64,000 nucleotides of DNA from Nitratiruptor tergarcus DSM 16512 (lineage in GTDB: Bacteria > Campylobacterota > Campylobacteria > Campylobacterales > Nitratiruptoraceae), in the NCBI RefSeq assembly GCF_027946175.1, contig NZ_AP026671.1, positions 186,001-250,000 of the forward strand, written 5' to 3'. A program made the translations under genes and the position numbers. How positions within the stretch are numbered: position 1 is the first letter of the stretch; each line of letters starts with the position of its first letter. The notes under the pieces were generated by a model. That model did not search any database and was not told where the DNA came from. It saw only the letters and a program-made list of their open reading frames with translations. Below, piece by piece: positions 36,747 to 55,714 of the stretch.

Positions 36747-36834
<88 letters not shown>

Positions 36835-37095
36835 CGGAATTTCCTATAATCCACATAAAATCGGACTTTAAGGAAACTTCAGATTATTTTGTACCGCATT
36901 ATGTACCGCAAAAAATCATCAACGTAGATAGACTTACAGTAAGTTTTTAGCTATCCATTTCTTAGCAGATTTTTCTATCTTATCAATTATTTCAGACCAG
37001 GGAAGTTAATATACAGACTTTGCAAAAACAAGTGACCAAAGGCAAACGAAAAACAATGATAGGTAAAAAGCTGTATTATTGGAAGAGGAGACAGT
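36835..37095. other. Island left junction without an intact gene
   Basis: This 261-bp stretch between the tRNA and the first phage gene has no intact coding region. On the minus strand a short open remnant (37005-36934) reads LPWSEIIDKIEKSAKKWIAK and then stops. It may be the last scrap of a lost gene such as an integrase, but I cannot show that. ATGTACCGCA and the TACCGCATTATGTACCGC repeat near 36890-36910 are short direct repeats. Confidence 0.3.
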
Positions 37096-37527
37096 TTATA
37101 CCTTCCAAAACTGCTTTCCAGTTCCATCCCATTTCATATTGTTTTTGGCATAGAATGAACGCACAGCTTTTAGTAAAAAAGTTGCATACCATACAAGATA
37201 CACCATATCTTTTGCATTGACAATGTTATATTTTATAGCATTAAGTACTTCTAAATCATTTTCATCCAGAGGTAGGTTGTTTGCAAGTACCTGTTGCCAC
37301 AACTCAGCCAGTTCAATTGCCAGAGGTTTGACCTTGGCAAAGTATTCGTCGTGATAGGATCTGTTTTTAGGCGAGATGATATAGTCTGCATTGTAATAGT
37401 CGTATGGTGCCTGGTTGCAGTTATGATACAGGCGATAGAGCTCTTCAAAAACCATCGTTACCATAAGCGAGATTTTATTACAATATTCAGTGTGTTTTGT
37501 TTGTGACAAATCTTTTATTTGAATCAT
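37096..37527 (-). CDS. Unrecognised phage protein downstream of terminase
   Basis: A 143-residue mainly helical protein starting MIQIKDLSQTKHTEYC, with no motif I recognise. The start at 37527 is set by AAAAAAGGAGA before it; the longer in-frame start at 37611 overlaps the terminase end and has no such site. It follows the large terminase gene by 49 bp on the same strand, the place where portal or small head genes often lie. At this size it is not a portal protein. Confidence 0.55.
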   Translation of the reverse strand: MIQIKDLSQTKHTEYCNKISLMVTMVFEELYRLYHNCNQAPYDYYNADYIISPKNRSYHDEYFAKVKPLAIELAELWQQVLANNLPLDENDLEVLNAIKYNIVNAKDMVYLVWYATFLLKAVRSFYAKNNMKWDGTGKQFWKV

Positions 37528-37576
37528 TTTTTTCTCCTTTTTTGATTTAAAATATTTTGAACAACCAACTGCCAAC

Positions 37577-38815
37577 CTACCAGAAAAAACTATCTTTATA
37601 ATTAAGACCAATCATCGCATCAATAAACTTGGCTGCCAGATATCCACCCTCATACGTAAATACGGCATAGCGCAGCGCGTCAATGAGATGATCGTTGTTT
37701 TTGGCAGGCTTGTCGGTGAGCTGTTCATTCCTGTCCACTTGCCAGGTATAGGTTGAGAGTTCATCCTGCAACTGATACAAATCGTCAAACACAAGCAGTT
37801 TTTTGCTTCTGAACATTGCATCGAGCATACTGATTCCTGCAAGGACGTCTTTTTTGGCTACACTCATAGGCAGTCCCCGACGCTTCAGTGTTTCCAGTGC
37901 ATCTTTTCCTGCAGGATCGGCATAGATGGTTCCGTATCCTTTTTTCAGTACCGCTTCCAGATCATCAATATTTGTTTGGCTCTTTTTCCATTCGCCAACC
38001 ACATAGACAGTATCGTTGTTGTTAGGGTCAAGCGCCAGCTGTACAACGGCATTGGGGTTGTTGAAACCAAAATCCAGACCTCTGAAATAGATACAGTTTG
38101 GCGGAAGCTGGAATCTTGGTATATAGGTGACTTCTTCAAAAATGAGTCCTGCCGGTTTGGTAAATTTTGCCTCGAAAAACATCTCATATTTCCATTTGGG
38201 AAGCATAGTCCTGGCTCTTTCTATTTCACTGAGCGGATAAAAAGGATTGTCTGAAGATTGCGGGTTGACAACAAATATATTGCTGTCTCCCTCAAGCCAG
38301 GCATCATATACTTCACTTTTGAGCCAGTGGTTGCTGCCGTAGGGAGTGGAGAGAATCAGGAGCTGCCCGCTGTGGAATGCCAGCCTCTGCAGTGCTGTAT
38401 CAAACACAGGCTTTGCCATAAGACCGGCTTCATCCATTACTATTAGCGAAGCATGGATTCCCTGCATACTCTCATAGCTTTCGGCACTGATAAGATAAAT
38501 GACTCCATAGGAGAATGTGATGGTCATCTCACTTTTGTTGAGCGTATATGGAATACCAAGTTCGTCGAATCTTTGTCTGATATATTTCAATGGGTTTCGT
38601 AAAAGCATTTTGTGAGTGGGAGCAAGAACGATAATTTCCATTGGTGTACCGGAACTTCCAAAGTGTTCCAGTGCCTTGTAGAAGATTGCAATAGGCAGCA
38701 AAAATGTTTTCCCGCATCCCGTACCCCCTATGAGTGCAGTGATTTTCTGCTTTGCCTGCAAAAATCGAACCTGGTAGTCGATGAGTTTGTATTCGATTAC
38801 AGGCTTATGACTCAT
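37577..38815 (-). CDS. Phage terminase large subunit
   Basis: The ATPase-nuclease that packages phage DNA. Walker A is IGGTGCGKTF, Walker B is LIVMDEAGL, and the C-terminal nuclease has FRGLDFGFNNPNAVVQL and a later DAL-RYAVF. The 412-residue length fits Terminase_6-like proteins. The start MSHKPVIEYK at 38815 has AAGAGA before it; an upstream ATG at 38845 has no ribosome-binding site. It overlaps the small subunit by 11 bp. The gene appears intact although structural genes are missing downstream. Confidence 0.88.
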   Translation of the reverse strand: MSHKPVIEYKLIDYQVRFLQAKQKITALIGGTGCGKTFLLPIAIFYKALEHFGSSGTPMEIIVLAPTHKMLLRNPLKYIRQRFDELGIPYTLNKSEMTITFSYGVIYLISAESYESMQGIHASLIVMDEAGLMAKPVFDTALQRLAFHSGQLLILSTPYGSNHWLKSEVYDAWLEGDSNIFVVNPQSSDNPFYPLSEIERARTMLPKWKYEMFFEAKFTKPAGLIFEEVTYIPRFQLPPNCIYFRGLDFGFNNPNAVVQLALDPNNNDTVYVVGEWKKSQTNIDDLEAVLKKGYGTIYADPAGKDALETLKRRGLPMSVAKKDVLAGISMLDAMFRSKKLLVFDDLYQLQDELSTYTWQVDRNEQLTDKPAKNNDHLIDALRYAVFTYEGGYLAAKFIDAMIGLNYKDSFFW

Positions 38816-39209
38816 TGTTCTCTTTTTTTCTGCTTGGTATTTCATTGAAAACTATAGTGACAGGGACGGATTCTGTTGCTTCATTTGCTTCCTCCAGTCC
38901 CAGTTTTCGATCCAGTGCGTTGAATCTGAAAATCTCCTTGACTGCAGCCAGTCTCGCTCTGTCATCATACCCCTCAAGGATCTCTTCTAGTACTGCCATT
39001 GAACGCATTGCCAGTCTGGTAAACCTTTCATTGAAAAAAGCCTTTTCAAGCTCCTCGATACGCTGGGAAACAGTTTCATTACCAAGAAGAGCATACGCTT
39101 TTTTTTCTGCATAACTTTTGGAATAGCCGGCTTTCAATGCAGAAGCCTTCGCATCACGGGTAGCAACATAATTGATACAGAATGCCTCCTGTTTTTTTGT
39201 AAGACCCAT
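38805..39209 (-). CDS. Phage terminase small subunit
   Basis: A 134-residue Terminase_2-type protein that recognises the packaging site. It starts MGLTKKQEAFCINYVATRD, with the helix-turn-helix region ASALKAGYSKSYAEKKAYALL. The start at 39209 follows GGAAGG and is where similarity begins. The gene runs directly into the large subunit, the usual order. It faces away from the rightward DUF932-Rad52 cluster. Confidence 0.85.
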   Translation of the reverse strand: MGLTKKQEAFCINYVATRDAKASALKAGYSKSYAEKKAYALLGNETVSQRIEELEKAFFNERFTRLAMRSMAVLEEILEGYDDRARLAAVKEIFRFNALDRKLGLEEANEATESVPVTIVFNEIPSRKKENNES

Positions 39210-39432
39210 CGAAAACCTTCCAATTTCTATCCATTTTCTTCGATTATAGCATCGCAGTATCCAAAAACAAAGAGTAGAAAACAGAGTAACGGGGATGCAG
39301 AGTGATAATTTTTTCAAAAAACTGGTCATATATCTATGAGGGAATGTTTATGTCCGATTTCCTCAGTTTTTCATACTGTAATCGGCAAATGCCATTATGG
39401 TATGTAAATTTAAATATTCCAAAGGAGGTACC

Positions 39433-39504
39433 ATGCCATGGATAGATATTCTTGTAGCAGTCGGCACAATACTTTTGACTGTAGCCAAAGAGCTCAAAAA
39501 ATAG
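39433..39504 (+). CDS. 23-residue hydrophobic peptide with a strong ribosome-binding site
   Basis: AAAGGAGGT lies 3 nt before an ATG that opens 23 codons, MPWIDILVAVGTILLTVAKE and LKK, then TAG. The peptide is one potential membrane helix with a basic tail, as in type I toxin peptides and small phage membrane proteins. The perfect Shine-Dalgarno is better than those of most genes here. No antisense RNA or promoter can be assigned. It lies in the gap between the divergent phage gene sets. It may be only a leader peptide. Confidence 0.4.
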   Translation: MPWIDILVAVGTILLTVAKELKK

Positions 39505-39668
39505 TTGATGATCCAAAATCATCCTGTCTTGAAAGATTGTTGCTGTGGCTGAAACAGTTTGTGAAACACAGTCCTGCCAACAACATCTCTTTTCAACCTG
39601 CCAATCCAACAGTTTCTTAGTCATCCGCTAATTTTCCACATTCAACATATCACTACAAAGGATCACCT

Positions 39669-40480
39669 ATGTCAGCACTGCATCCGTTAACAAATGAGGA
39701 ATTGATGGAGTACGCCCCATCTCTGTTCACCAATCAGCCTTACCATAAGGCAAGCAACAAATACCATTTCATCCCAACGATTGAGGTCATTAATGAACTA
39801 AGAGCCCACAAATGGCATCCTGTCAATGTACAGGAAGCTGGTGTGAGAAATATTGAAAAAATAGGTTATCAAAGGCATCTTGTTCGGTTCCGCCATCTCG
39901 ATGACCTTATCAATCCCCAAAAAATGCAGTTGAGCTTTTACTGTTTAACTCACACGACAGAACAACGGCATTCAGTATCAGCGCAGGCATCTACCGCTTT
40001 GCCTGCGCCAACGGTCTGGTAATAGCCAACAGTGTGTTTAAAAGCTATAAAATCAGACACATCGGATACAAAGAGAGTAATGTTCTTGCAGCTTTGGAGA
40101 ATATCGCATCCTTCAAACCAACGCTGCAAAAAAAGATCAGTTTATTTGAATCCATCAGACTTTCTGCTGATGAAAAGCTTGCATTTGCCAATGCTGCAAT
40201 ACCTCTGAGGTTTAATGAGCATATAGAGGTCAATACCGATGATATTGTAAGACCCAGAAGAGAAGAGGATCAAAAAGATGATCTTTACACAGTTTTTAAT
40301 GTTATTCAGGAAAACCTGCTTCGGGGAAATCTAAAAGTAACAAACAAAAATAGTGGCAAAAGTTACAGAAGCAGACAGATTCGATCTATCTTGAAAGATA
40401 TTCAAATCAATCAGGCTCTTTGGAATATTGCGGAACAAATTGCTAAATCACAATCAAACCATCTTGCTATTGCTGCATAA
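39669..40480 (+). pseudogene. DUF932 phage/plasmid protein broken by a one-base frameshift
   Basis: Two adjoining frames make one DUF932 protein. The first part ends its good similarity at INPQK near 39924. The second continues as ELLLFNSHDRTTAFSISAG then YRFACANGLVIAN and runs to 40480. Adding one A to the A6 run at 39919-39924 restores QKNAVELLLFNSHD. The rejoined protein would be about 270 residues. DUF932 proteins are common on phages and plasmids; function unknown. It starts a rightward cluster with Gp157 and Rad52-like genes. A sequencing error cannot be excluded. Confidence 0.7.
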
Positions 40481-40509
40481 CCAAACAAAAAAACCATAAG
40501 GAGTCCATT

Positions 40510-41085
40510 ATGAAAACAACCAACTACAGACTGCAAACTGAAATTGAGCATCTCACTTCACCATCGAAAAAAGAGTGGTTCAAGAACTATCTCAAAGAGA
40601 TTTTGGAATCAGACAAGCCATACTATGTCAAATGCGACTACATTGCACTGTCCTTCTTGGAGCTGGACAACAAAATAGCCTATTTAAGCAGTGAGATAAA
40701 AATTCTTACTGAACTGAAGAAAAAGCTGCAGCAGGCTAAAACATTGGGACTGGAAATTGCAGCTGAAATACTGCAAGAGTATGGCATAGATAAAATTGAA
40801 GGCACTGCCATCTCATCCTTTACCATTACGCCACCAAGAAAAAATATAAAAACTGATATACGCATCAAAGATCCCCAAAAAGTGATGGAGCTTGGCTATG
40901 TCAAATTTGATGTGGACAAAAAAGCAATAGAAAAAGCCCTGCAATTTCCAGAACTCTTTGAAGAGCTGGAACCATATGTAGATGTTGAATACATAGAAGA
41001 AGATGTGCCTGCAAGGCTGAAAATCAACAAAAAACGAAACAGTGTCAATTCTGCCGATACGGTGGAGATAATTAATGCTGCCTAA
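40510..41085 (+). CDS. Siphovirus Gp157-like protein
   Basis: A 191-residue protein with the helical N-terminal half of the Gp157 family (KIAYLSSEIKILTELKKKLQ) and the conserved second half (FTITPPRKN, then strands and DVEYIEEDVPARLKINKK). Gp157 of S. thermophilus phages was linked to phage resistance; biochemical role unclear. Usually it sits beside recombination genes, as here, where a Rad52-like gene follows. AAGGAG precedes the ATG. Confidence 0.8.
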   Translation: MKTTNYRLQTEIEHLTSPSKKEWFKNYLKEILESDKPYYVKCDYIALSFLELDNKIAYLSSEIKILTELKKKLQQAKTLGLEIAAEILQEYGIDKIEGTAISSFTITPPRKNIKTDIRIKDPQKVMELGYVKFDVDKKAIEKALQFPELFEELEPYVDVEYIEEDVPARLKINKKRNSVNSADTVEIINAA

Positions 41086-41095
41086 GGAGATACCA

Positions 41096-41761
41096 ATGTT
41101 TACAGACAAACAGATTCAACTATTAAAATACAATCTTGATGGAAAACGGGTTAAAACCAGAAAGCAAGGAAATATTATCTTAAGCTATCTGGAAGGGCAC
41201 GATATTATCGATACTGCAAACTTCATCTTAGGATTTGGAAACTGGAGCTACAAAGTTACCGCATTAGATCAAGTCAGCGAAGAGACCAATCAAAACGGCA
41301 ATATAGTAATCGGATATCGGGCTATTGTGAAAGTGACCGTTTACAACATATACCGAAAAGCAAGTGTTACAAGAGAAGATGTGGGCTTTGGAACAGGTGT
41401 TGCAAAAGAGTATGCCATGGCGCATGAAGGAGCAGGCAAGGAGGCAGTGACAGATGCTTTGAAAAGAGCCTTCAGAACCTTTGGCAACCAGTTTGGCAAT
41501 GCCCTCTATGACAAAGAACAGAAGAATGTGGATCACAGCCAGCAATCCATCAAATCACAACATACTGATTCTAACAATCAGACACAACAAGACCCCTATG
41601 TAAAACTCAAACAGCTGGGACTCGGTGTAGAAGAAAGAGACGGCGAGCTTATCGTTACAGGATCAACATATGGAAAGCAGCAATATATCAAACCGTTGGG
41701 CTTTCGATGGGATGCGAGTAGAAAAGTGTGGTATCAGCCGATACAGAAGCAGGTGGCGTGA
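41096..41761 (+). CDS. Rad52-type single-strand annealing protein
   Basis: A 221-residue Rad52/22-family recombinase. Visible are the N-terminal helix (QIQLLKYNLDGKRVKTRKQG), the fold core LSYLEGHDIIDTANFILGFG, and the signature GAGKEAVTDALKRAFRTFGNQFGNALY. These phage proteins anneal single strands during replication and recombination. The start MFTDKQ at 41096 has AAGGAGATACC just upstream, better than the ATG at 41075, which lies in the end of the Gp157 gene. A hairpin follows the stop. Confidence 0.85.
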   Translation: MFTDKQIQLLKYNLDGKRVKTRKQGNIILSYLEGHDIIDTANFILGFGNWSYKVTALDQVSEETNQNGNIVIGYRAIVKVTVYNIYRKASVTREDVGFGTGVAKEYAMAHEGAGKEAVTDALKRAFRTFGNQFGNALYDKEQKNVDHSQQSIKSQHTDSNNQTQQDPYVKLKQLGLGVEERDGELIVTGSTYGKQQYIKPLGFRWDASRKVWYQPIQKQVA

Positions 41762-41815: not shown

Positions 41816-42419
41816 TTTTTGAAATAAAGCACGTCAATATGACAAGTATTGGATTTAAATTCACACTCTTTTAATTGTAAATTGAATTTCTTTTGTGAAA
41901 GATTTTAAATTATTCTAGTATAATACCAAAATTATTTTATTCTATTGAAATGATTGTCCCTGTCTCTTGATATTAATTATTTCTGTGATTGACTTTAAAA
42001 TATTTATAATAGCCAATATCAACAAGGTCATCCTATCCCTTCCATTTTATCATGTTATTAATTGAAATTTTTCCATTAAATGATTTGTAATTTTTTTCTT
42101 TTAAATAACCAAAAAACTATCTTTGAGTTCTCTTTTCCTTTTACGCATCTATCTTTTTTACTTCGTTACTCTTTTTTAATCGAAATAGCTTTCTTTTAAT
42201 AATCTCTATATCTCCTTGAAAGGAGAATCTATTTAACATAGTTTGACAAATTTTTATTTATTTTATTGAATTCATTTAACATTTTTCTGTGATAAAATGT
42301 CCTTTATTTTGAAATGTTTTTATTTTTACATAATGTGGTATTCATTAGAATAATTTAAATAAGTTGCGATTTTTGAAATAGAAGTAATAAGTTGAGGATA
42401 AATTGCAGAAGGATATGCA
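41816..42419. other. AT-rich 600-bp gap before the FtsZ-like gene
   Basis: No coding frame of note on either strand. It is very AT-rich, with T-runs and pyrimidine-rich tracts. A small hairpin TCTCCT-TGAA-AGGAGA (42211-42226), preceded by TATA, resembles the one at 41790. TTGACA at 42243-42248 and GATAAAAT at 42291-42298 could be promoter elements for the next gene, which leaves a long leader of over 100 nt. I see no RNA gene. Confidence 0.35.
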
Positions 42420-42995
42420 ATGAATAAAAAATGTTGTATTATAGGAATTGGTGGTGGTGGATGTAAAATGTTAGAACTACTTGCAGAATCAGATTTGTTA
42501 TGTACATTAATAGCAGTAAATAATGAAAAAGGAACATTAAATTTTCTTGATAGTTGTATAACTAATAAAATTTATGTGAATAAAGATCAAGAAGCGCTCA
42601 AGGGATATCTTGAAAATCCATATAATGAAGAAAATATTTTAGATGAAAATATCAAGAACAACCTTTACGAATTGACAAAAGATTGTAATGAGATTGCCAT
42701 TGTTATGACAGGAGGTGGAGTAACAGGTGGTACAATTGCACCTATTATTGCAAAATATTTGAAATCTTTATCAAAAACAGTTGTTGCATTTACAACACTT
42801 CCTTTTACATTTGAAGGAAAAAAACGGGAAAAGATTGCAAGAAAAACTATAGAAAATTTAGAAGAGATATGTGATCAAATTGAAGTTATTGATAATAATA
42901 AAATTTTAAAATCTTTAAATAAAAACGATAATATGGATGACTTGAATGTAAAATTATCAAATATAATTTTAAGAAAAATTAAAAATATATTCTAA
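42420..42995 (+). CDS. Minimal FtsZ/tubulin-like GTPase
   Basis: The 191 residues match only the GTP-binding half of FtsZ. Present are IIGIGGGGCKM (residues 7-17, like GVGGGGGNAV), LIAVNNEKGTL (30-40), the signature region MTGGGVTGGT (96-105, in place of GGGTGTG), TLPFTFEGKKR (126-136) and IDNNKIL (157-163). The H7 helix, T7 catalytic loop and C-terminal domain are missing. So the protein cannot form a normal FtsZ filament active site by itself. The end is natural, because the convergent Nmad3 gene occupies the following DNA. AAGGATA precedes the ATG. Makarova and Koonin described divergent FtsZ-like families, but this short form I do not recognise. Cell-division FtsZ is ruled out. Confidence 0.75.
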   Translation: MNKKCCIIGIGGGGCKMLELLAESDLLCTLIAVNNEKGTLNFLDSCITNKIYVNKDQEALKGYLENPYNEENILDENIKNNLYELTKDCNEIAIVMTGGGVTGGTIAPIIAKYLKSLSKTVVAFTTLPFTFEGKKREKIARKTIENLEEICDQIEVIDNNKILKSLNKNDNMDDLNVKLSNIILRKIKNIF

Positions 42996-43805
42996 TATTT
43001 TCCCTTTTTCTGATGTAGAATCTAAATCTAATACAAACTCTTGACCTATATATGGAGCTTTAATGTTAACAAAATCATTATTGGCAATAAAATTTTTTAC
43101 ATATGTAAAAGCTTGCGGCTGATTGAAAAAACTTGGTAATTTCCAATAACTTCTTCCTTTATAATTTTCTATATCGCTAAGTAGTGTATAATTGTTATAT
43201 TTTAATCTTTTAAAATTTTTTGAAATAAAGATGATATTGGGATTTTTCCTAGTAATTTCAATATGGGGATGTTTCGCTAAGAAAGGGTATATTTGCAATA
43301 TCTTATTGGTATTATCATTATTAATATGCAAAACCTTTCCAACTTCCATATATCCCCATATAACATGCAAATCTTTTGCATCCTTTTTATATTGCCATTT
43401 ATTATCTATTTTTTCGACTTCTTTAAACCATCCATAAAAGAGAAAAATGTCACCTTCTTGAACTTTTTGATTTATAAGATGCGATGCTGAAGCACCTTCT
43501 TGTCCAAAGGCTATTCCATTAAATTGATCATTTTCAAAAATCATAGGATCGAAATGGCATTTAAATTTATCTGAAAAATAATCGCAATCATGTTTTTTCC
43601 CAGATCGGATTTTTTTATTAGTCAAATCATTTAAAATTCTTTGAATAGGCTCTCCCTCATAGGTAAATTTCAAATCTTTGTAAGAAATCGATGTTTTTTT
43701 ATCAGGTATAGGCACAGAAAATAGTGTTCCATCAGGAAAAATAGGACTTGCATAGCCACCATGAGATGAATCAAATCCCTTTCTACTGAAAATAATTTTC
43801 ATCAT
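42969..43805 (-). CDS. Nmad3 domain protein (nucleotide-modification-associated)
   Basis: A 278-residue protein starting MMKIIFSRKGFDSSHGGYAS and PIFPDGTLFSVPIP, the signature of nucleotide modification associated domain 3. The family was predicted by Aravind and colleagues from gene neighbourhoods of base-modification systems; its chemistry is not known to me. Further conserved stretches are HFDP, FGQEGASASHL and FYGWFKE. It overlaps the Nmad2 gene by 4 bp and the convergent FtsZ-like gene by 27 bp. It lies beside other likely defence genes. Confidence 0.75.
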   Translation of the reverse strand: MMKIIFSRKGFDSSHGGYASPIFPDGTLFSVPIPDKKTSISYKDLKFTYEGEPIQRILNDLTNKKIRSGKKHDCDYFSDKFKCHFDPMIFENDQFNGIAFGQEGASASHLINQKVQEGDIFLFYGWFKEVEKIDNKWQYKKDAKDLHVIWGYMEVGKVLHINNDNTNKILQIYPFLAKHPHIEITRKNPNIIFISKNFKRLKYNNYTLLSDIENYKGRSYWKLPSFFNQPQAFTYVKNFIANNDFVNIKAPYIGQEFVLDLDSTSEKGKILEYIFNFS

Positions 43806-44638
43806 GAACCCCTACAAGAAAATCGTTTTTCTTTCATTTCATTATTTGCATTCTTTGATATTTTATTGGATAGTTCACTTTTGCAAGATGATTTCTTTTC
43901 ATCTATTTCGTCATTACAGCCATTATCGATACAACAATTTATCGGCTTGCCGTGAACGCCATATCCATATTTTTTTATTCGATCATCTATAAATTCTTTC
44001 AATTCTTTATATCTTTTATCGTTTGGACGGCAATATTTAAATCCTCGACTTTTAGGTGCACATTCTAATAGTTCTTGTGGAAATTTAACACCTTTGTTTC
44101 CAAAATATAGAAATTTTTTTGATATGAATACTCTATCTCCTTTTAAATCTTGCAATATGACTCCATATTTTTTTATTTTTTCTTCGTCTTTCAAATATTC
44201 ATAAAGTTTGTCTTCATCAAAAAAAACATCTTCATCAGGCAAATCTCTTAAGCGTCTTGGTTCGTGTTCATGCCCCCTTATCCATTTCCACTTATTATTT
44301 TCTTTATAATAGTTGTTGTCTCCATTTTGTTCTTTCCAATTGCCATCTTTTTTGAATTTTTTAGCTTGAAACCTTGGATCTCTAAAATATTGGTCTAAAC
44401 TCAAACATTCATCTATTTTGGCTGCATAAATTAGTAATTGTTCTATATCAGGATTGCAACCTTTCGCAATTCTTTTCTTTGCTAATTCTTTGCTTTCTAT
44501 ACCTATTATCCATTCACCAGGGTGCAAATTTGCTCTTCTATGATTAGGTGTGCAAGCAGCAACAGTTAAATAGCCCCAAAAAGGATTAGGAGTAAAACCG
44601 CCATCATAAGTCATTCTATAAATGAGATATCTTTCCAT
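43802..44638 (-). CDS. Nmad2 domain protein (nucleotide-modification-associated)
   Basis: A 278-residue protein whose N-terminus, RYLIYRMTYDGGFTPNPFWG and later AACTPNHRRANLHPGEWIIG, is the typical Nmad2 start. The region is followed by a charged middle and a cysteine-containing C-terminus (CCIDNGCNDEID). Nmad2 and Nmad3 are often adjacent, and here their coding regions overlap by 4 bp. Inferred role: base-modification or defence-associated; no catalytic residue can be named. TATA-rich DNA separates it from the divergent gene at 44726. Confidence 0.75.
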   Translation of the reverse strand: MERYLIYRMTYDGGFTPNPFWGYLTVAACTPNHRRANLHPGEWIIGIESKELAKKRIAKGCNPDIEQLLIYAAKIDECLSLDQYFRDPRFQAKKFKKDGNWKEQNGDNNYYKENNKWKWIRGHEHEPRRLRDLPDEDVFFDEDKLYEYLKDEEKIKKYGVILQDLKGDRVFISKKFLYFGNKGVKFPQELLECAPKSRGFKYCRPNDKRYKELKEFIDDRIKKYGYGVHGKPINCCIDNGCNDEIDEKKSSCKSELSNKISKNANNEMKEKRFSCRGS

Positions 44639-45817: not shown

Positions 45818-46510
45818 CTAAGAAAGCCCTTTAAATTTCTTGAACGAAACAAGAATTGGATTCATCTCATCCTTGAAAAGTTTGATATAATCATCAGAAA
45901 GTCCGATTGTTCCAGAAGGATGAGGAAATGCAGCTATATCGCAATTTTCAAAACTTTGAAAGCCTATTTTGAATCGCTTTCCTGGAAAATCTTTTTGAAT
46001 AAATTTTAAAGGTTTTGTTTCTTTACCCATAATTTTTTCAAACTCATTTTTTATATCGGGATTATTTAATACTTTTATCATTTCAGCTCCCAAAAATATT
46101 ATCAATCTTGGTTTGAACTCACGAACGTGAGCCAAGAAATTATCTTTGCAATTAAGCAATTTATGATATCTATTGCCATTGAAAGCGTGATTCTGACTAT
46201 CACACCAGTTGGTTTGCAAAATAGTCTTTTCAAATTCTCCATTATCTCTTTTTAATGGATGACCCCATAATCCAAACCATTTGATGATTCTTTCATCATA
46301 TTGATAATAATGTTTTAGTGAGTATTTTTTATAAAGATTGACTTTGTTTGAAAATGTGGAAGGCTCTTTTTGAAAATCTATCGGATTGATTTTTCCGTTT
46401 TTATATGCTTCCTGTTCCTCTTTTGAAAATCCCCATTCATACCCACACAACATGATACCTTTTTTGTCGTTATACCCTTTGAATATTGAATTACCTACAT
46501 TCCATTGCAT
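45818..46510 (-). CDS. Uracil-DNA-glycosylase-fold protein
   Basis: A 230-residue protein with the landmarks of the UDG fold. The N-terminal loop after a strand is IMLCGYEWGFS, in the place of GQDPY-type motif A. A middle strand is PRLIIFLGAEMIKVL, and the second motif is AAFPHPSGTIGLS, with the His of motif B. UDG enzymes excise uracil or altered bases; the unusual motif A without a clear Asp/Asn suggests altered specificity. It is last in the leftward AAA+ operon. A role in acting on modified phage DNA is inference. Confidence 0.6.
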   Translation of the reverse strand: MQWNVGNSIFKGYNDKKGIMLCGYEWGFSKEEQEAYKNGKINPIDFQKEPSTFSNKVNLYKKYSLKHYYQYDERIIKWFGLWGHPLKRDNGEFEKTILQTNWCDSQNHAFNGNRYHKLLNCKDNFLAHVREFKPRLIIFLGAEMIKVLNNPDIKNEFEKIMGKETKPLKFIQKDFPGKRFKIGFQSFENCDIAAFPHPSGTIGLSDDYIKLFKDEMNPILVSFKKFKGLS

Positions 46511-46526: not shown

Positions 46527-47444
46527 TTACAATTTAAAAAACTTCTGATCATCTATTGTTATCTCACTCCAGAATGAAAGCTCTGTAGTTATGATTCTCA
46601 ATCCGAAAAACTCTATCAAATGCCAAAAAAGTCGGCAAACTTCCATATTATTTAACTCTCTTAAATGATATAAAACACCATCTTCAAACATCTCTTCTGT
46701 ATAAAAGAGTTCTAAAATTTGCTCATATCCTAATATTGTATCAAAAACTTTCACTTTTATCTCAATATTGTAATCACTTATTTTTTTACTTTTGATTTCT
46801 CTCAAAGACTCTTTTACTCGCTTTCCTAAATCCTCTTCTATTTTTCTAAAAATCTTGTCTTTCTTCTTTGCAATTGGTATGAGGCTCAATCTATACTCAT
46901 TATATGTTTTCCAAAACTCCTCTATGCTCAAATTTTTGCCATCTTTTTGCAGTTCTAAATCTTTTGTTAATGTTACTCCAAGCTCGGTAATAGTAAATGG
47001 TAAAAGCTCTGGCTCTTTCAAAAACTCTTTTTCTTGGTTTCTTACTTTTTCAAAATCAATGATCCAATGTTTGGCATAAGGATCCATAAATATGAACTCA
47101 TCATCACGATCTCTTAAAAAATATTCACAAAACTTCTCACCAAACTTTTCAACAATATTTTTAGGAATAGTAAATTTGCTATAATCCCACCGTAAAGATC
47201 TAAAAAGTTTTTCTACTTCATATAAGCTTTCTTTTGAAAATCTGAATCTCAAATAGTCATATAACTCATCCACTTTTTGCGTTTCTATTTCTATAAATTT
47301 ATTATTTTCCTTCTTGAAAGGAACTATTTCAAGATCGGGATGACCCGAATAGAGTATCCAAAGATAATAGATTCCTTCTTCATCTACAAAAACACGAGTC
47401 ATTTGAGAATTATTACGATTTATATTACAAATTCTTAAACTCAT
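46527..47444 (-). CDS. Unrecognised operon protein (305 residues)
   Basis: No family is recognised. The sequence is hydrophilic with a strand-rich beginning (TRVFVDEEGIYYLWILYSGH), a helical middle including a basic coiled region (KKDKIFRKIEEDLGKRVKES) and aromatic-rich ends (FWHLIEFFGLRIITTELSFW). No transmembrane helix or signal. It lies 12 bp behind the SLOG gene and 16 bp before the UDG-like gene. Its start has a weak ribosome-binding site. It probably works with the AAA+ ATPase at 47999, since the four genes form a single leftward transcription unit. Confidence 0.6.
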   Translation of the reverse strand: MSLRICNINRNNSQMTRVFVDEEGIYYLWILYSGHPDLEIVPFKKENNKFIEIETQKVDELYDYLRFRFSKESLYEVEKLFRSLRWDYSKFTIPKNIVEKFGEKFCEYFLRDRDDEFIFMDPYAKHWIIDFEKVRNQEKEFLKEPELLPFTITELGVTLTKDLELQKDGKNLSIEEFWKTYNEYRLSLIPIAKKKDKIFRKIEEDLGKRVKESLREIKSKKISDYNIEIKVKVFDTILGYEQILELFYTEEMFEDGVLYHLRELNNMEVCRLFWHLIEFFGLRIITTELSFWSEITIDDQKFFKL

Positions 47445-47456
47445 TCCTATATTCCA

Positions 47457-47987
47457 CTATTTGGTTATGAGATCTAAAATATTTCCATAATACTTCCCTG
47501 CCTCTTTTGCCCGTTTTATCGTATCCATAGTGCCAGATGAATTGTATTTCATATAAGAAATTACGATATCCACCATATCAACCATATATTGATTGCGGGC
47601 AAAAAAAGAAGATCCAATGTTTTTGTATCTCTTTGAAATCTCTTCATATCCAGCACTCTTTTTCGCATATTCCAAAATTTCATCATAGCGGATGGCACTC
47701 TCTTTTCGTGCTTTGTGCCAATAGATTTTATGGGGAATTGCTGCAAAAAGAGCCAAGCCATTATTCATGGCATAGAGCGCAAATATCTCATCCACGCCCC
47801 TTGCCATTCCCGAAATAAGAACAACTTCATTTTTATCAACGGACAAGTCTTGGAAAATTCTATTCATCATCGAATCGATTTCTCCATAGACTTTATTGAA
47901 TATATCTTCATCATACTTTCTGTAATCGATTAGCTTTTTGCCGTTTGCTTTTTCTATGTTTACATGTCCGGTGATCGCTATTTTCAT
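47457..47987 (-). CDS. SLOG-family nucleotide-binding protein
   Basis: A 176-residue Rossmann-like protein. The opening strand and loop are KIAITGHVNI. The glycine segment is VLISGMARGVDEIFALYAMN, the next strand LALFAAIPH, and the closing region is FARNQYMVDMVDIVISYMKY then SSGTMDTIKRAKEAGK. This matches the YspA/DprA-type SLOG branch that binds nucleotides or nucleotide-derived ligands. By family knowledge SLOG proteins can sense or process signals in antiphage systems. It sits 11 bp after the AAA+ gene with AAGGAGAG before its start. Confidence 0.75.
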   Translation of the reverse strand: MKIAITGHVNIEKANGKKLIDYRKYDEDIFNKVYGEIDSMMNRIFQDLSVDKNEVVLISGMARGVDEIFALYAMNNGLALFAAIPHKIYWHKARKESAIRYDEILEYAKKSAGYEEISKRYKNIGSSFFARNQYMVDMVDIVISYMKYNSSGTMDTIKRAKEAGKYYGNILDLITK

Positions 47988-47998
47988 GGACTCTCCTT

Positions 47999-50098
47999 TT
48001 ATGAAGCGACAAATCCCATTTTTATATTTGAAGAAACGTTTTTCATCATTACTTCTTCTTGAAGCCGTTTTGCGAAATCTTCGGCATCTTTAATTGGATG
48101 GAATCTGTTTTGTCTCAAAACTGCTGCAAAATCTCCAGGGGTAAGATTTCTTAGTGATGCAACTATACAAAGAATGTCGTTGTCCGGACTTTTCAAATCC
48201 AGTATTTGACACAATTCTATGAACATAGTTTTTGCCTGATTCAGTCTCATGTAATCAAAATGCAGCTTCAAATCAAATCTTCTAAGACTGGCCTGATCGA
48301 GATTTTCCATCAAGTTTGTCGTAGCGATAAATATGCCTTCAAATGCTTCCATTTGTGTAAGCAGTTCATTTACCTGTGTCACTTCCCAGCTTCTATGTGC
48401 CTGGTGACGATCTTGTAAAAGCCCATCGATTTCATCAAATATCAAAACAGCATCATCTTTTTCGGCTTCTTGAAATGCATTGGCAATATTTTTTTCCGTG
48501 CCTCCGACCCACATACTGAGCAGATCGCTTCCTTTTTTTACAATGAAGGGTCTATCAAGTCTGTTTGCCAACCATTTTCCAAATGCACTCTTACCTGTTC
48601 CGGGAGGTCCATAGAGACAAATTCTGGCATTTGGGTTCTCAGCTATTCCTTGTGCGATATGTTCAAGATCTATAGTTGTATTTATATACGCCGGATTGTA
48701 TGAAAAAGAGATTAAATTTTTTAGCTTGGACAGTGGTTTATGACCTTGGGCTTCAAGCATAGAAGATATGATGAAATGAGCTTCTTTGTCAGCACGCTTT
48801 TTTTGATTTGTTATCAAATCCAATACATTGGAAGCCTTTGAAATTGTTGCCGGAGCAATATTTTCATGTTCACTGATAATGTTAATAGTCTGTTTGGATA
48901 CATATTTTCCAAGAAATTGTTCAGCAATGGCTTTTCGTTTGGATCGTGGGGGAACTGGCATATGAATTACAAGATCAAAACGTCTTATGATGGCTGGATC
49001 TATTATATCGATAGAATTGGAAATCCAAACTGTAGGAACTCTATTTTTTTCTAAAATATGGTTTATCCATCCTTTGTTTTCCTGTGTAGGACGTTTGCCT
49101 AGAAAAGCTGAGGCTAAATGGATGTCATCAAACACATCTTCAATTTCATCAAATAAAAGCATCACTGATTTTTGACCAAAGAGATATTGGGCAACTTTAT
49201 AGGCTGCTATTCTTTCTTTTCCATTAATTGGCTCATCTCTCTTATCAGCATAGCTTACTTCAAAAAGTTCAACATTAAGTATTTTTGCTAAAAATTTGGC
49301 AAGTTCGGTTTTCCCAGTCCCTGGTTTACCGTAGATCAAAATGTTTGTTCCTATTCTTTTTTGTTTTATGGATGAAGAAAGGAAATCACGGAGAACTTGA
49401 ATCTCATGAGAAATATGAGAAAAATCATTGTATGTCAATGTGACCGATGAGACTCTTCTGATCGCATCTTTAAATAAATCATACACATCATCATTTTCAT
49501 AATCTACCATAATATCAACAAATGTACTTGAGAATGGATCCAAGTATTCATATAGCTCAGAACTTCTGTATCGAATTGTTATCAAGCCAGATAGAGAGAG
49601 TGTAGAATTTGGTGATAAAGCTTTCTTTATAGATTTTTCGCTAAGTTCTAACAATAAAGAGAGGATTTTTAAATTACTTCTTTCTTGATTTATTTTTTCC
49701 TCTAGAACAAATAAGGCGTTTTGTATTTCTGAACTATAATCCATTATTATCGCAAATTTCAATATTTCTTGCTCTGTATCTGTGAGATCAATAGTTTTAT
49801 AAAGAGATGCAACATTTTTTTCCAAATTGGATGGATATGGAGATCGTGTAGTTTCAATAATCTCATGACATACTTTTTGTATACGTTCAATCACAAATTG
49901 TGGATTTTTTTCTGATTCATCTTTCAAGTCTTTCATTCCAAGAACAGATGCTAATTTTGGACGTCGAAAAAAACCAAGCGTAACATACGGTTCTATAAGA
50001 TCTAATTGATATAATATATTTGCTACCCAATAGCGGATTGAGGCTATTTTTTCTTGTTCCAATGTATTTTCTTTTTCCTCTTTTATCAATGCCGCCAT
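47999..50098 (-). CDS. Tandem AAA+ ATPase, copy 1
   Basis: The 699-residue protein has an N-terminal helical region (about 1-230) and two AAA+ modules. Module 1 has Walker A GKPGTGKT near 258 and Walker B LLFDEIEDVF. Module 2 has GPPGTGKS near 498, LIFDEIDGLL and the arginine-finger stretch ASLRRFDLKL. Its layout resembles CDC48-type double-ring ATPases, but the N-terminal domain is not recognised. The gene at 53545 is a clear paralogue, matching over nearly the whole length. AAGGAGGTG precedes the start. A palindrome lies 47 nt upstream. It heads the operon AAA-SLOG-unknown-UDG. Likely a remodelling motor within a defence system; this is inference. Confidence 0.85.
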   Translation of the reverse strand: MAALIKEEKENTLEQEKIASIRYWVANILYQLDLIEPYVTLGFFRRPKLASVLGMKDLKDESEKNPQFVIERIQKVCHEIIETTRSPYPSNLEKNVASLYKTIDLTDTEQEILKFAIIMDYSSEIQNALFVLEEKINQERSNLKILSLLLELSEKSIKKALSPNSTLSLSGLITIRYRSSELYEYLDPFSSTFVDIMVDYENDDVYDLFKDAIRRVSSVTLTYNDFSHISHEIQVLRDFLSSSIKQKRIGTNILIYGKPGTGKTELAKFLAKILNVELFEVSYADKRDEPINGKERIAAYKVAQYLFGQKSVMLLFDEIEDVFDDIHLASAFLGKRPTQENKGWINHILEKNRVPTVWISNSIDIIDPAIIRRFDLVIHMPVPPRSKRKAIAEQFLGKYVSKQTINIISEHENIAPATISKASNVLDLITNQKKRADKEAHFIISSMLEAQGHKPLSKLKNLISFSYNPAYINTTIDLEHIAQGIAENPNARICLYGPPGTGKSAFGKWLANRLDRPFIVKKGSDLLSMWVGGTEKNIANAFQEAEKDDAVLIFDEIDGLLQDRHQAHRSWEVTQVNELLTQMEAFEGIFIATTNLMENLDQASLRRFDLKLHFDYMRLNQAKTMFIELCQILDLKSPDNDILCIVASLRNLTPGDFAAVLRQNRFHPIKDAEDFAKRLQEEVMMKNVSSNIKMGFVAS

Positions 50099-50144
50099 TG
50101 TTGCACCTCCTTGTTAAGTTCCATCGTAGTTTGACATAGAATGG

Positions 50145-50160
50145 CGACAACATTTTGTCG
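50145..50160. promoter_or_regulatory. Regulon operator 1, before tandem AAA+ copy 1
   Basis: CGACAACATTTTGTCG: 16 nt with arms CGACAA and TTGTCG around CATT, ending 47 nt before the start codon of the leftward AAA+ gene. It matches the sites at 55681, 58925 and 59668. On the minus strand one arm (TTGTCG) is placed like a -35 box, which would suit a repressor. The rightward RhuM-Fic gene starts 109 nt away on the other side. Confidence 0.7.
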
Positions 50161-50268
50161 TGATAAATACTATAATCATATCAGGGAATTTGTGGAGATT
50201 GACCAAACTGCATACACTATATAAGCAGGATATAATAAGTAAATTGTGAAATATAAAAGGGTAAAAAA

Positions 50269-51243
50269 ATGGAAAATAAGCTTATTATTTTTGAAGATAA
50301 AGATAAGAGAATTGAAGTTCAATTAAAAGAAGAGACATTATGGCTCGATGCACATAAGTTAGCCCAACTTTTTGATGTTGATAGAACAGTGATTGTAAAA
50401 CACATTAGAAATATCTACAAAGATGGAGAACTTGACGAAAATACAACCTGTGCAAAAATTGCACAGGTTGCCGCGGATGGTAGAAAAAGAAAAATGAATC
50501 TATATAATCTAGATGTAATAATCGCCGTTGGTTACCGGGTAAACTCTAAAAAAGCAACAAAATTTAGAATATGGGCTACAAATGTTTTGAAAAATTACCT
50601 TGTTAAAGGGTACGCAATAAATGAAAAGAAACTTACTAAAGAAAAATTGAAAGAGCTCGAAAATGCTATAAAGTTTATAAAAGACAATATCAATACCCCT
50701 TCTTTGACAGCCTCCGAGGCAAAAGGAATGCTTGAAATTATTGAAAAATACGCTTTGGTTTGGAAATGGATAGAAGAGTATGACACAGGAAAAATAGAGG
50801 TAAAAATTACAAGAGAGGATAGAAAAAAAATAAGTTATGAAGAAGCAAAGGAGGTAATTGCAGAACTTAAAAACTATCTCATTGAACATAACGAAGCATC
50901 AGATATATTTGGAGTAGAAAGAGACAGAGGACTATTTGAGAGCGCATTAAATACTATCTATCAAAGTTTTGAAGGCAGAGAGCTTTATCCGTCATTTGAA
51001 GAAAAAGCGGCAAACTTGCTTTATTTGATTATTAAAAACCATCCCTTTGTAGATGGCAATAAACGAATAGGAGCTTTGCTCTTTTTAAAATTTTTATATG
51101 AAAATCTATCCAAAGAGGAACTGTTTCAAAAATTTAACAGCAATACTTTAACTGCTCTATGTTATCTCGTAGCAGCAAGTCCGGCCGAGCAAAAAGAGCA
51201 ACTTATAAAACTTATTATGAATTTCATAGTATTTGAAGGATAA
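50269..51243 (+). CDS. RhuM-Fic fusion protein
   Basis: The 324-residue protein joins an N-terminal RhuM/KilA-type region (about 1-120: LAQLFDVDRTVIVKHIRNIY, AADGRKRKMNLYNLDVIIAV, GYRVNSKKATKFRIWATNVL) to a C-terminal Fic/Doc domain. The Fic motif begins at His258, HPFVDGNKRIG, and is intact. Fic/Doc proteins transfer AMP or phosphate groups to target proteins. The first part is common in phage and mobile-element proteins. AAAAGGG precedes the ATG. It is monocistronic or precedes the Sir2 gene (58-bp gap). A toxin or defence effector role is inferred. Confidence 0.85.
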   Translation: MENKLIIFEDKDKRIEVQLKEETLWLDAHKLAQLFDVDRTVIVKHIRNIYKDGELDENTTCAKIAQVAADGRKRKMNLYNLDVIIAVGYRVNSKKATKFRIWATNVLKNYLVKGYAINEKKLTKEKLKELENAIKFIKDNINTPSLTASEAKGMLEIIEKYALVWKWIEEYDTGKIEVKITREDRKKISYEEAKEVIAELKNYLIEHNEASDIFGVERDRGLFESALNTIYQSFEGRELYPSFEEKAANLLYLIIKNHPFVDGNKRIGALLFLKFLYENLSKEELFQKFNSNTLTALCYLVAASPAEQKEQLIKLIMNFIVFEG

Positions 51244-51301
51244 AAAAAGAAAAAGACTTAAAAAATTATCGTTAGGTGAATGATAAAGCAAAGAGAATAA
51301 G

Positions 51302-52129
51302 ATGAAAACTGCACAAGAAATAGTAAAAGAATCGGATGTAATAATTATAACTGCTGGTGCTGGAATGGGGGTAGATAGTGGCTTGCCTGATTTTAGAGGT
51401 AATGAAGGTATGTGGAAAGCGTATCCTCTTCTTGGTAAAAAAAGAATATCGTTTAAAAAAATAGCAAATCCAAACGCTTTTAAATACAAACCTGAACTTG
51501 CTTGGGGATTTTACGGACATAGATATGACCTTTATAAAAACACGAAACCTCATATCGGATTTAATGCTTTGTTGGAGCTTGTAAAAACAAAAGAAGATTA
51601 TTTTGTAGTTACATCAAATGTTGATGGACATTTTCAAAAGGCTGGATTTGATGATAAAAAAATTTATGAAATTCACGGAAGAATTAGAGTATTTCAATGC
51701 ACCGTATGTAACAATATTTGGATACCATCACCAGATTTAAAATTTGATGTAAATCCTGAAACTTTAGAAATTAAAACAGAGATTCCAAGGTGTTCAAGTT
51801 GTGGAGAGATTGCAAGACCAAATATAATGATGTTTAATGATTATTCATTTAATTCAAGTATTAATTATCAACAAAAGAAGCGATATGATTCTTTTATGAG
51901 AAAATATTATAATAGTGATACAAAAATAGCTATACTTGAATTTGGAGCAGGAACAGCTTTGCCAACCATCAGAATAATGGGAGAAGAGATGCAAGAAAAA
52001 ATATCAAATGCCACATTAATTAGAATAAATCCAAGAGAAGCCAAAGGACCAAAAGGAACAATTTCTATTGCCAAAGGTGCACTTGAAGCTATTTTTGAGG
52101 ATATTTTTTATAATGATATTAAGGTTTAA
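51302..52129 (+). CDS. Sir2-family NAD-dependent protein
   Basis: A 275-residue sirtuin. The NAD loop GAGMGVDSG is at 19-27, followed by LPDFRG. TSNVDGH is at 104-110, the catalytic His is 125 (YEIHGRI), and the zinc cysteines are C133, C136, C164 and C167. All canonical residues for NAD use are present. Most sirtuins deacetylate proteins, but Sir2 domains in defence islands often degrade NAD on infection. Here no second effector domain is fused. Its context beside Fic, AAA+ and nuclease genes favours defence but does not prove it. Confidence 0.85.
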   Translation: MKTAQEIVKESDVIIITAGAGMGVDSGLPDFRGNEGMWKAYPLLGKKRISFKKIANPNAFKYKPELAWGFYGHRYDLYKNTKPHIGFNALLELVKTKEDYFVVTSNVDGHFQKAGFDDKKIYEIHGRIRVFQCTVCNNIWIPSPDLKFDVNPETLEIKTEIPRCSSCGEIARPNIMMFNDYSFNSSINYQQKKRYDSFMRKYYNSDTKIAILEFGAGTALPTIRIMGEEMQEKISNATLIRINPREAKGPKGTISIAKGALEAIFEDIFYNDIKV

Positions 52130-52298
52130 GAAAAATTTACTGTGAAATTTTTTGTTAACAATATCTGGTATGGCTCTATTTATAGCTCCAAATAGTTTAT
52201 CTAATTTTCCTTCGCTTATGTTTTATTAGTTTATACTTCCCCCCCCAACTGCACAGGATATAATACATAAAGAGTAAGAAACAAAAGGGTCAACAAGA

Positions 52299-52619
52299 AT
52301 GGAGAAATTAAATAAAAATCAAGAAGAGATAAAGCGTTTTACAGCAAAGAAGAAAGCTTCCATAGTCATGGATATTTTTCAAGGGAAAACTACAGTATCT
52401 GAAGTTGCGAGAAAGTATGATTTGGCACCTGGAGCAATAGAGGAGTGGATGGAAGATGCACGTAGAGGTATGGAGAATCAATTAAGAGCCAGACCTAAAG
52501 ATATAGCTGCCATGTATGAAGAGAAGATAAAAGATATGAAGGCAGTTATAGGTGAATTGACATTGGAGAATATCGCATTAAAAAAGTACGACGCTTCTGT
52601 AGGAAAAGAGAAGAAGTGA
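52299..52619 (+). CDS. IS3-family orfA
   Basis: A 106-residue protein with a helix-turn-helix near the N-terminus (ASIVMDIFQGKTTVSEVARK, then YDLAPGAIEEWM) and a C-terminal coiled coil (EEKIKDMKAVIGELTLENIA). It helps bind the element ends. Its TGA overlaps the orfB start. In IS3 elements a frameshift can join orfA and orfB. Confidence 0.8.
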   Translation: MEKLNKNQEEIKRFTAKKKASIVMDIFQGKTTVSEVARKYDLAPGAIEEWMEDARRGMENQLRARPKDIAAMYEEKIKDMKAVIGELTLENIALKKYDASVGKEKK

Positions 52620-53471
52620 TGCAAGTACAGAGCAAAATGAGAAGCGAGGGCTACCCAATAAGCATCACAAAACTCTGTAAGCTGTTGAATATTCCTCGCA
52701 GGAGCTTTTATTACAAGCCCGTCAAAAGAATACGGAAATTGGATGAAGAGCGTGTTAAAAAAGTCAAAGAGAAGATAGAGAAATTTCCAACGTATGGCTA
52801 TCGTCGTTTAGCTTTGCTGCTTGGGATGAACAAAAAAGCAGTGCAGCGCATTCTGCAACTAAAAAGTTGGCAGGTAAAAAAGCGTTAAAGGGCATAGGCC
52901 ACGAGCCAAAATGATGCCTTCGTGTTCACACTATCCCAATCAAAGATGGACTATTGATATGACCCGCATCTACAGTATTAATGATGGCTGGAGCACTTTG
53001 GCTTGTGTGATTGATACTTGTATCCGTGAAATCGTTGGATGGAGACTCTCAAAAAGCGGTAAAGCAAAAACAGCAGAAGCTGCTTTGCAAAAAGGCTTGA
53101 TCTATCGATTTGGAAGACTTCAGCGATTGAAAGAGCCCATTGTATTACGAAGTGATAATGGATTGGTTTTTACCAGTAAATCGTTCACCAAAACAATCAA
53201 AGATTACAACTTCACTCAGGAGTTCATCACTCCTTATACTCCTGAACGTCCGAGCGAAGCGACAACCCCGCAGGCGAAGCCGAGGACAAATGGCATGATT
53301 GAAAGGTTCTTCCGAACCATCAAGGAAGAGTGTATCTGGCACTATAACTTCAAATCACTCAAGGAGTCTAACAAAATTATTGAAGAATGGATCAATTTTT
53401 ACAATCAAAAACGAAAGCATTCAGCGCTGCAGTACAAAACACCTGTAGAAGTGTTTCACTTGGTAGCTTAG
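52616..53471 (+). pseudogene. IS3-family orfB transposase, frameshifted
   Basis: An IS3 DDE transposase cut into two frames. The first frame (52616-52888, GTG or ATG start) ends QLKSWQVKKR with a stop. The second resumes as KSVKGHRPRAKMMPSCSHYP, with catalytic regions TIDMTRIY, LRSDNGLVF and GMIERFFRTIKEE. Adding one A to the A6 run at 52876-52881 joins them. The break falls before all three catalytic residues, so the element is probably immobile unless complemented, or the base call is wrong. Confidence 0.75.
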
Positions 53472-53544
53472 GTGTGCAGAAAAGGTGGGGTCATTACACT
53501 TTAGTCATAACGGTTCTCAAAATTTCATTTCTTTATTTAACATA

Positions 53545-55635: not shown

Positions 55636-55680
55636 TGCAGACTCCTTTAAGATTTCTACAAGAAGTTTGGCACAATATGA

Positions 55681-55696
55681 TGACAACATTATGTCA
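55681..55696. promoter_or_regulatory. Regulon operator 2, before tandem AAA+ copy 2
   Basis: TGACAACATTATGTCA, arms TGACA/TGTCA, ends 46 nt before the 55635 start codon. It sits in the 79-bp gap after the WYL gene. Identity with operator 1 covers 13 of the 14 core positions. Confidence 0.7.
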
Positions 55697-55714
55697 CTAT
55701 AGAGGTAAAGGAGT

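Follow-up and report, generated by a model that had tools for sequence, protein, structure and literature searches.

A short gene in a mobile island of Nitratiruptor tergarcus DSM 16512 encodes one half of an FtsZ protein, which raises the question of whether it is the remnant of a broken gene or a protein in its own right and what such a half-protein could do. Two traits normally define the tubulin/FtsZ proteins: their subunits polymerise head to tail, and neighbouring subunits share an active site. The window, as the term is used below, is the whole 64,000-nucleotide stretch of DNA analysed.

The half-FtsZ gene and its product

The gene, its signals and its nearest neighbours are as follows.

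42325 to 42354, + strand: candidate sigma-70-like promoter, TTTACA-18-AATAAT (consensus match only, 10/12)
42407 to 42411, + strand: AAGGA upstream of the ATG, a ribosome-binding site recognised from the sequence itself
42420 to 42995, + strand: FtsZ N-domain-only protein, 191 aa, from loop T1 to the first half of helix H7 (PF00091, E 1.2e-20)
42969 to 43805, − strand: Nmad3 gene (PF18754, E 3.5e-60), convergent with the FtsZ-like gene
43802 to 44638, − strand: Nmad2 gene (PF18753, E 1.3e-38)

The reading frame has an ATG start, 191 codons and a TAA stop. The candidate promoter is weak because such sites are frequent in an AT-rich stretch; the G+C content of the gene is 25%, compared with 36% in the window. 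The gene looks monocistronic, and the nearest gene for a WYL regulator is 13 kb away.

The product is a GTPase domain of the FtsZ/tubulin superfamily. PF00091, the tubulin/FtsZ GTPase domain, covers residues 5-166 with 75.1 bits against a curated cut-off of 33, and the top sequence match in the PDB is B. subtilis FtsZ (E 7e-17). The AF2 model (pLDDT 87.5, pTM 0.86) has the FtsZ fold, and all PDB matches listed by Foldseek are FtsZ (best E 3.8e-13, TM mostly 0.75-0.84), although this shape is partly imposed because the input was limited to seven sequences, of which six were full FtsZ. Coordinates, domain match and predicted structure therefore agree with an earlier note on this DNA, which had described a 191-residue FtsZ-like protein with the GTP-binding half only and had proposed structure prediction as a check. 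The motifs GGGVTGGT and PFTFEGKKR, quoted there, are present.

The same note had stated that H7, the T7 loop and the C-terminal domain are missing. The latter two are indeed absent, but the N-terminal half of H7 is present: the protein begins with strand S1 and includes ~19 residues at the start of H7 (model positions 172-190), stopping inside this helix, before the T7 loop. It fails the TIGR00065 equivalog test for FtsZ (90.5 bits against a cut-off of 295.2, positions 19-202 of 353), and two of the features that define this family, the NxDxxD T7 synergy loop and the C-terminal domain, are both lacking. In FtsZ, loops T1-T4 bind the phosphates, T5 the ribose and T6 the guanine, and T7 is catalytic for the neighbouring subunit (PMC8936486). 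As had been noted earlier, the window protein cannot complete the catalytic site on its own, and its setting is a defence-like mobile island.

The truncation is not due to a frameshift in a full-length gene. A search at maximum sensitivity detected no trace of an FtsZ C domain in any of the window's reading frames, and no separate FtsZ_C is encoded in the genome, where only the host ftsZ carries this domain. The 3' end of the gene is overlapped over 27 bases by the Nmad3 gene; the earlier reading had placed another gene on the opposite strand in the next DNA. The normal host ftsZ is located elsewhere in the genome (G000:C1:473.6-474.5 kb). Its product is 57% identical to FtsZ of Campylobacter jejuni; the window protein matches host FtsZ with ~30% identity over 84 residues only.

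A family of N-domain-only proteins

Relatives were sought in 397 genomes of the phylum; those with extra matches were looked at more closely, and 377 genomes were also searched with a profile. This yielded six more intact N-domain-only proteins.

L068 (genome G030): 257 aa, with an N-terminal transmembrane-like and coiled-coil-like stretch
L069 (G120): 174 aa
L193 (G120): 175 aa
L072 (G362): 170 aa
L073 (G202): 158 aa
L070 (G134): 203 aa

Together with the window protein they make seven, in six genera and five families. The features proposed to define the family (no T7 loop or C domain in the protein; T1, T5 and T6 conserved; occurrence in several genera) are found in these seven proteins from six genera. 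Five of the seven (window, L068, L069, L072 and L073) stop in H7 at positions only a few residues apart, and L070 and L193 extend ~30 residues beyond this common end point. The family is thus one of small, very divergent, stand-alone FtsZ GTPase (N) domains in mobile defence islands of the phylum. The homologues are not fragments of full genes, which would have undermined the earlier interpretation, but intact proteins, mostly with one end point in H7.

The gene could still be decaying cargo, left over from an island FtsZ paralogue and without function. Broken relatives, which are pseudogenes, are present in G142 and G346, and the window gene is very AT-rich and lies beside a prophage remnant, all of which is consistent with decay. 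Seven intact, strongly diverged reading frames, mostly with one end point and with the same pocket residues, are unexpected under it, and this explanation is improbable.

Several other FtsZ forms were encountered. Full-length but atypical FtsZ paralogues occur in G278, G300 and G374, the latter two without the T3 region. A short candidate in G028 (L040/L067) proved to be the chromosomal ftsZ, which lies behind ftsA and is truncated where the contig ends. The extra matches in G235 and G033 (L075, L076) are a different thing, N-truncated FtsZ copies just downstream of ftsZ. This copy, of 216 aa, directly follows ftsZ, lacks the first ~115-130 residues, is open in two related genomes and represents the mirror-image truncation. 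A lone 105-aa ORF in G276 (L125, 1853-2170, − strand) matches the FtsZ C-terminal domain only; it has a WYL regulator on one side and a phosphoesterase-like gene on the other, with a dual-AAA gene ~7 kb off. In G278 a full-length FtsZ-like gene is directly followed by an ORF of 143 aa (L077, 10085-10516, + strand) that weakly matches the FtsZ C domain. Plasmid pTs485 of Ca. Thiodictyon syntrophicum (L156) carries an FtsZ paralogue in which MPCPFEG replaces KPFxFEG, next to a Sir2-family gene.

INPHARED, PLSDB and IMG/VR yielded no recognisable N-domain-only relative. A phage-borne gene is not indicated, as the matches examined in these collections are full-length FtsZ and the rest are short and partial, mostly to annotated ftsZ. 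The only match in one scan of genome contigs was a Muiribacterium chromosomal FtsZ; alignment A2 was too diverged for such a scan.

Conservation of the nucleotide pocket and of the subunit interface

In alignment A5, which holds six of the proteins, nine of the ten invariant columns fall in T1, T4, T5 and T6. All seven members share the Glu that binds ribose and the T6 Asn that binds guanine, so that conservation of nucleotide-binding residues among the homologues, on which the earlier reading depended, holds for those that contact ribose and guanine. PF is kept in all seven, and the T1 glycines and the first two T4 glycines are mostly kept. The phosphate end has fared differently: T3, the gamma-phosphate loop, is missing in five of the seven, and the second half of T4 (GTGTG) has drifted. 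The glycine-rich GTP-binding loops described earlier do belong to a genuine FtsZ GTPase domain, but in the window protein the changes extend to T3 and half of T4, and therefore its GTP site is not simply intact. Guanine binding by the window protein may be weak, because the position of the stacking Phe183 in H7 is occupied by Asn and that of D187 by Ser.

In S. aureus FtsZ, D46, Q48 and G72 contact the T7 loop of the next subunit (PMC8936486). These positions are lost or changed in most members of the family; that of Q48 is retained in L068 alone and that of D46 in four of the seven. L068, next to which a catalytic-looking C domain is still present, retains D46, Q48 and T3. Partner domain and interface are thus lost together, and the guanosine end of the pocket persists.

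These data bear on the possibility that the protein is a division-arrest effector, in which the N domain would bind the exposed T7/bottom face at the growing end of a host FtsZ filament and, because it offers no bottom face to the next subunit, would cap it, so that division stops as an abortive response. The growing end does expose the bottom/T7 face, incoming subunits dock by their GTP-bound top face, and bottom-interface mutants of FtsZ are toxic (PMC8936486); the N and C domains of FtsZ are largely independent (PMC5414002), and the basic residue of H5 at the R143 position is Arg or Lys in all seven proteins. Yet the interface positions D46, Q48 and G72 have been lost or changed in most members, and the window protein is only ~30% identical to host FtsZ over 84 residues. 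The filament cap suggested in the earlier note is weakened accordingly, the guanosine pocket having been kept where the contacts to the T7 loop were not, and an arrest of division by capping is rather unlikely. The other suggestion, a nucleotide sensor, appears to fit the pattern of conservation better, although any FtsZ-derived sequence also shows conservation of the pocket loops.

Split forms and origin

Two of the seven N-domain-only genes, L068 and L069, are followed by separate ORFs for a C-terminal domain and represent a 'split FtsZ'. In L068 two overlapping ORFs after the N-domain gene jointly make up an FtsZ C-terminal domain with an intact T7, NLDVDDL. In L069 the N-domain protein, a 104-aa protein and a 148-aa C-domain ORF follow in this order on one strand; the FtsZ_C match of the last is below cut-off, and its T7 has degenerated to KLSLQDL. 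Homologous ~105-aa proteins with no Pfam match lie beside the FtsZ-like genes of L069 (1336-1650, − strand) and L079 (10008-10328, + strand), in two genera.

A split FtsZ could operate in trans, with the N domain and a C domain supplied by another protein forming a heteromeric filament or GTPase. The arrangement in L068 and L069 and the crystallisation of FtsZ in domain-swapped forms (PMC5414002) are in keeping with this. Against it, the window and the genome hold no C-domain partner besides host FtsZ, none lies beside L070, L072 and L073 within the DNA examined, and the C domain of L069 has lost part of its T7 motif; complementation in trans is quite unlikely.

In a tree, the six N-domain-only proteins tested fall on one side of a branch against full-length FtsZ with support of 85/95, on long branches and with an unsettled bootstrap, and the window protein groups with L069 (97/92). 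The tree's own checks warn of long-branch joins. The forms found suggest an origin from island FtsZ paralogues, either full-length or split. The simplest reading is that a full-length island FtsZ was split and then lost its C domain; given the long branches, the warnings and the unsettled bootstrap, we put this order forward as an inference only.

The island

The window island begins at a tRNA-Leu gene and continues through a prophage remnant (36747-41761), which lies right after the tRNA and extends from terminase genes as far as a Rad52-like gene at 41.8 kb. Within 36747-41761 of the window, an integrase was not noticed. Beyond the remnant, the island holds Nmad3, Nmad2, a SLOG protein, two dual-AAA genes, RhuM-Fic, SIR2, IS genes and a WYL regulator. 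Features other than those listed above are:

36747 to 36834, + strand: tRNA-Leu (ARAGORN), probable integration point of the prophage remnant or island
45818 to 46510, − strand: weak uracil-DNA-glycosylase-like protein (PF03167, E 0.005, below cut-off)
46527 to 47444, − strand: 305-aa protein, no assigned function (BLAST relatives)
47457 to 47987, − strand: SLOG/DprA-like protein (PF02481, E 2.5e-9; PADLOC ShosA, E 6e-11)
47999 to 50098, − strand: dual-AAA ATPase (Pfam AAA, E 2.9e-47; PADLOC IetA, E 1e-45)
50269 to 51243, + strand: RhuM-type domain fused to a Fic domain
53545 to 55689, − strand: second dual-AAA ATPase (BLAST identity to other copies)
55715 to 56674, − strand: WYL-domain regulator (WYL, E 4.9e-8; WCX, E 2.8e-10)

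Relatives of several of these proteins are found at other FtsZ-like loci. One of the 305-aa protein, 54-58% identical, adjoins the split-FtsZ locus L069 in G120. Homologues of the first dual-AAA ATPase (42-44% identity) lie near the FtsZ-like genes of L068, L078 and L079; the second has a 90% identical copy in the same genome and is 51-58% identical to the proteins of L068 and other loci. Homologues of the WYL regulator directly adjoin the FtsZ-like genes of L070, L073 and L078. A second module of WYL, dual-AAA, SLOG and 305-aa genes is present in the N. tergarcus genome (L110, G000:C1:1897.6-1902.3 kb), 87-92% identical to window 46527-56674, with adjacent GmrSD-like (DUF262-type) genes and no FtsZ-like gene.

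The Nmad genes, to which the earlier note had tied the protein, are not conserved companions. Nmad3 occurs in one of the 397 phylum genomes, and the two Nmad3 loci found elsewhere (L028, L029) have no FtsZ-like gene; an Nmad-linked system was therefore rejected. In Burkholderia stagnalis (L029) an Nmad2-like N-terminus also follows Nmad3.

Defence genes around the FtsZ-like loci

The company of the FtsZ-like genes across loci includes established defence genes: DruE, a PbeA/type IV-like helicase with HNH, GmrSD, IetA-like AAA and WYL genes. In L073 an integrase, a WYL gene 35 bp away and Druantia DruE (E 4e-207) stand beside the half-FtsZ; in L070 the WYL regulator is 59 bp from the FtsZ-like gene; and L068 has GmrSD and a dual-AAA gene that overlaps, at its stop, the start of the FtsZ-like gene. 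At L193 the neighbours include HNH and an SF2 helicase that scores as PbeA/type IV restriction, and GIY-YIG and exonuclease genes adjoin the FtsZ-like gene of L072. At L078 a divergent WYL gene lies 274 bp off, and at L079 WYL and FtsZ-like genes form part of a tight four-gene string. PADLOC gave no match for the FtsZ-like proteins of the window, L072 and L068.

Since WYL genes number only ~0.6 per genome (200 genomes), their proximity to FtsZ-like genes in L070, L073, L078 and L079 is far above genome-wide chance, but it is an association and not proof, because islands concentrate such genes. Adjacency in general overstates function, as defence islands gather unrelated genes, and the partner genes differ between the FtsZ-like loci. 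The dual-AAA gene was rejected as an obligate partner: it is present in 35 of the 397 genomes and near an FtsZ-like gene in only four examined loci (window, L068, L078 and L079), and is thus a frequent neighbour.

Similar pairs exist in Pseudoalteromonas. In all four replicons examined, plasmids or chromids of P. shioyasakiensis, P. donghaensis, HL-AS1 and HL-AS2 (L144, L145, L153 and L154), a WYL gene is directly upstream of a full-length FtsZ paralogue. The surrounding genes differ (viperin and reverse transcriptase, McrC, HipA, a nuclease), and a tyrosine integrase adjoins the pair in two of the four. These paralogues are probably able to polymerise, because they are full length, with an intact T7 (NVDLxDF) and the C-terminal peptide DIPAFIR.

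Comparison with known systems

The window protein shares with bacterial FtsZ (TIGR00065; PF00091 and PF12327) the GTPase-domain fold, T1, PFxFEG/T5, T6 and the start of H7. Unlike it, the window protein lacks the T7 loop, the C-terminal domain and the FtsA-binding peptide at the C-terminus, and its T3 and half of T4 are changed. Two FtsZ-like families described by Makarova and Koonin in 2010 (PMC2875224) are also distinct. FtsZl1 has a divergent FtsZ-like N domain and no recognisable standard C domain, but its T6-H7 region is unrecognisable, whereas the half-FtsZ family keeps T6; and it has long coiled-coil and helical C-terminal regions with vWA, OmpA or kinase neighbours, whereas the half-FtsZ proteins are N-domain only and lie in defence islands. 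The window protein, of 191 aa, has nothing past H7, and no vWA match was found among the neighbours scanned. FtsZl2 is likewise an FtsZ-like paralogue outside cell division, but it has all loops T1-T7, an extra C-terminal region of ~300 aa and no conserved neighbours (PMC2875224). The Pseudoalteromonas pairs also place an FtsZ paralogue beside a WYL regulator in a defence island; their FtsZ, however, is full length with T7 and the C-terminal peptide. No published description of FtsZ-like genes beside WYL regulators in defence islands was found in a literature search mostly without subscription papers.

FtsZ is part of antiphage sensing in the case of CapRel-Ebc, which senses the complex of phage T7 Gp0.4 with monomeric FtsZ; there, the host FtsZ itself is used and not an island-encoded FtsZ-like domain (PMC13423816). 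It is a precedent for FtsZ as phage bait in immunity, and a monomeric FtsZ-like domain in defence islands would fit a guard or decoy, in which the N domain mimics FtsZ and either soaks up a phage FtsZ inhibitor or triggers neighbouring defence genes. A decoy is, however, expected to stay close to its model, and the window protein is highly diverged from host FtsZ. We also know of no phage FtsZ inhibitor for these hosts, and a guard or decoy is unlikely.

Proposed role and implications

The reading tentatively preferred here, as a possible one, is that this divergent island-borne FtsZ N domain, having lost its C domain, serves as a guanine-nucleotide-binding sensor or adaptor which neither polymerises nor hydrolyses. 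FtsZ paralogues would initially have resided in defence islands in full-length or split form, and the C-terminal domain would have been lost afterwards. The domain is predicted to fold like the N domain of FtsZ and to bind a guanine nucleotide through T1, T5 and T6. Lacking T7 and the C-terminal domain, and with its interface residues eroded, it would probably not hydrolyse the nucleotide or form FtsZ-type filaments. With more reserve, the nucleotide-bound form may act as a sensor or adaptor for the island; it might respond to the state of the nucleotide, or to a change that infection brings about in FtsZ or guanine nucleotides, and relay the signal to a partner such as the WYL regulator or the dual-AAA machine. 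This role is ranked above that of a filament cap because the partner domain and the interface were lost together and the guanosine end of the pocket was kept.

On a broader scale, it is conceivable, at a similarly tentative level, that immunity has repeatedly recruited FtsZ into mobile islands, from full-length, WYL-paired proteins through split forms to a bare guanine-nucleotide-binding sensor or division-arrest module. The defence-island setting, together with the WYL-FtsZ pairs in another phylum, would tie cell division to antiphage immunity, as the sensing of Gp0.4-FtsZ by CapRel has already done (PMC13423816). Islands of related bacteria hold at least six half-proteins of this kind, most of them with one end point, which suggests that a division filament protein has been cut down and reused, perhaps as an immunity sensor or switch. 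If this is true, the FtsZ fold can serve as a monomeric nucleotide-binding switch, in which the polymerisation half has been dropped and the guanosine pocket kept.
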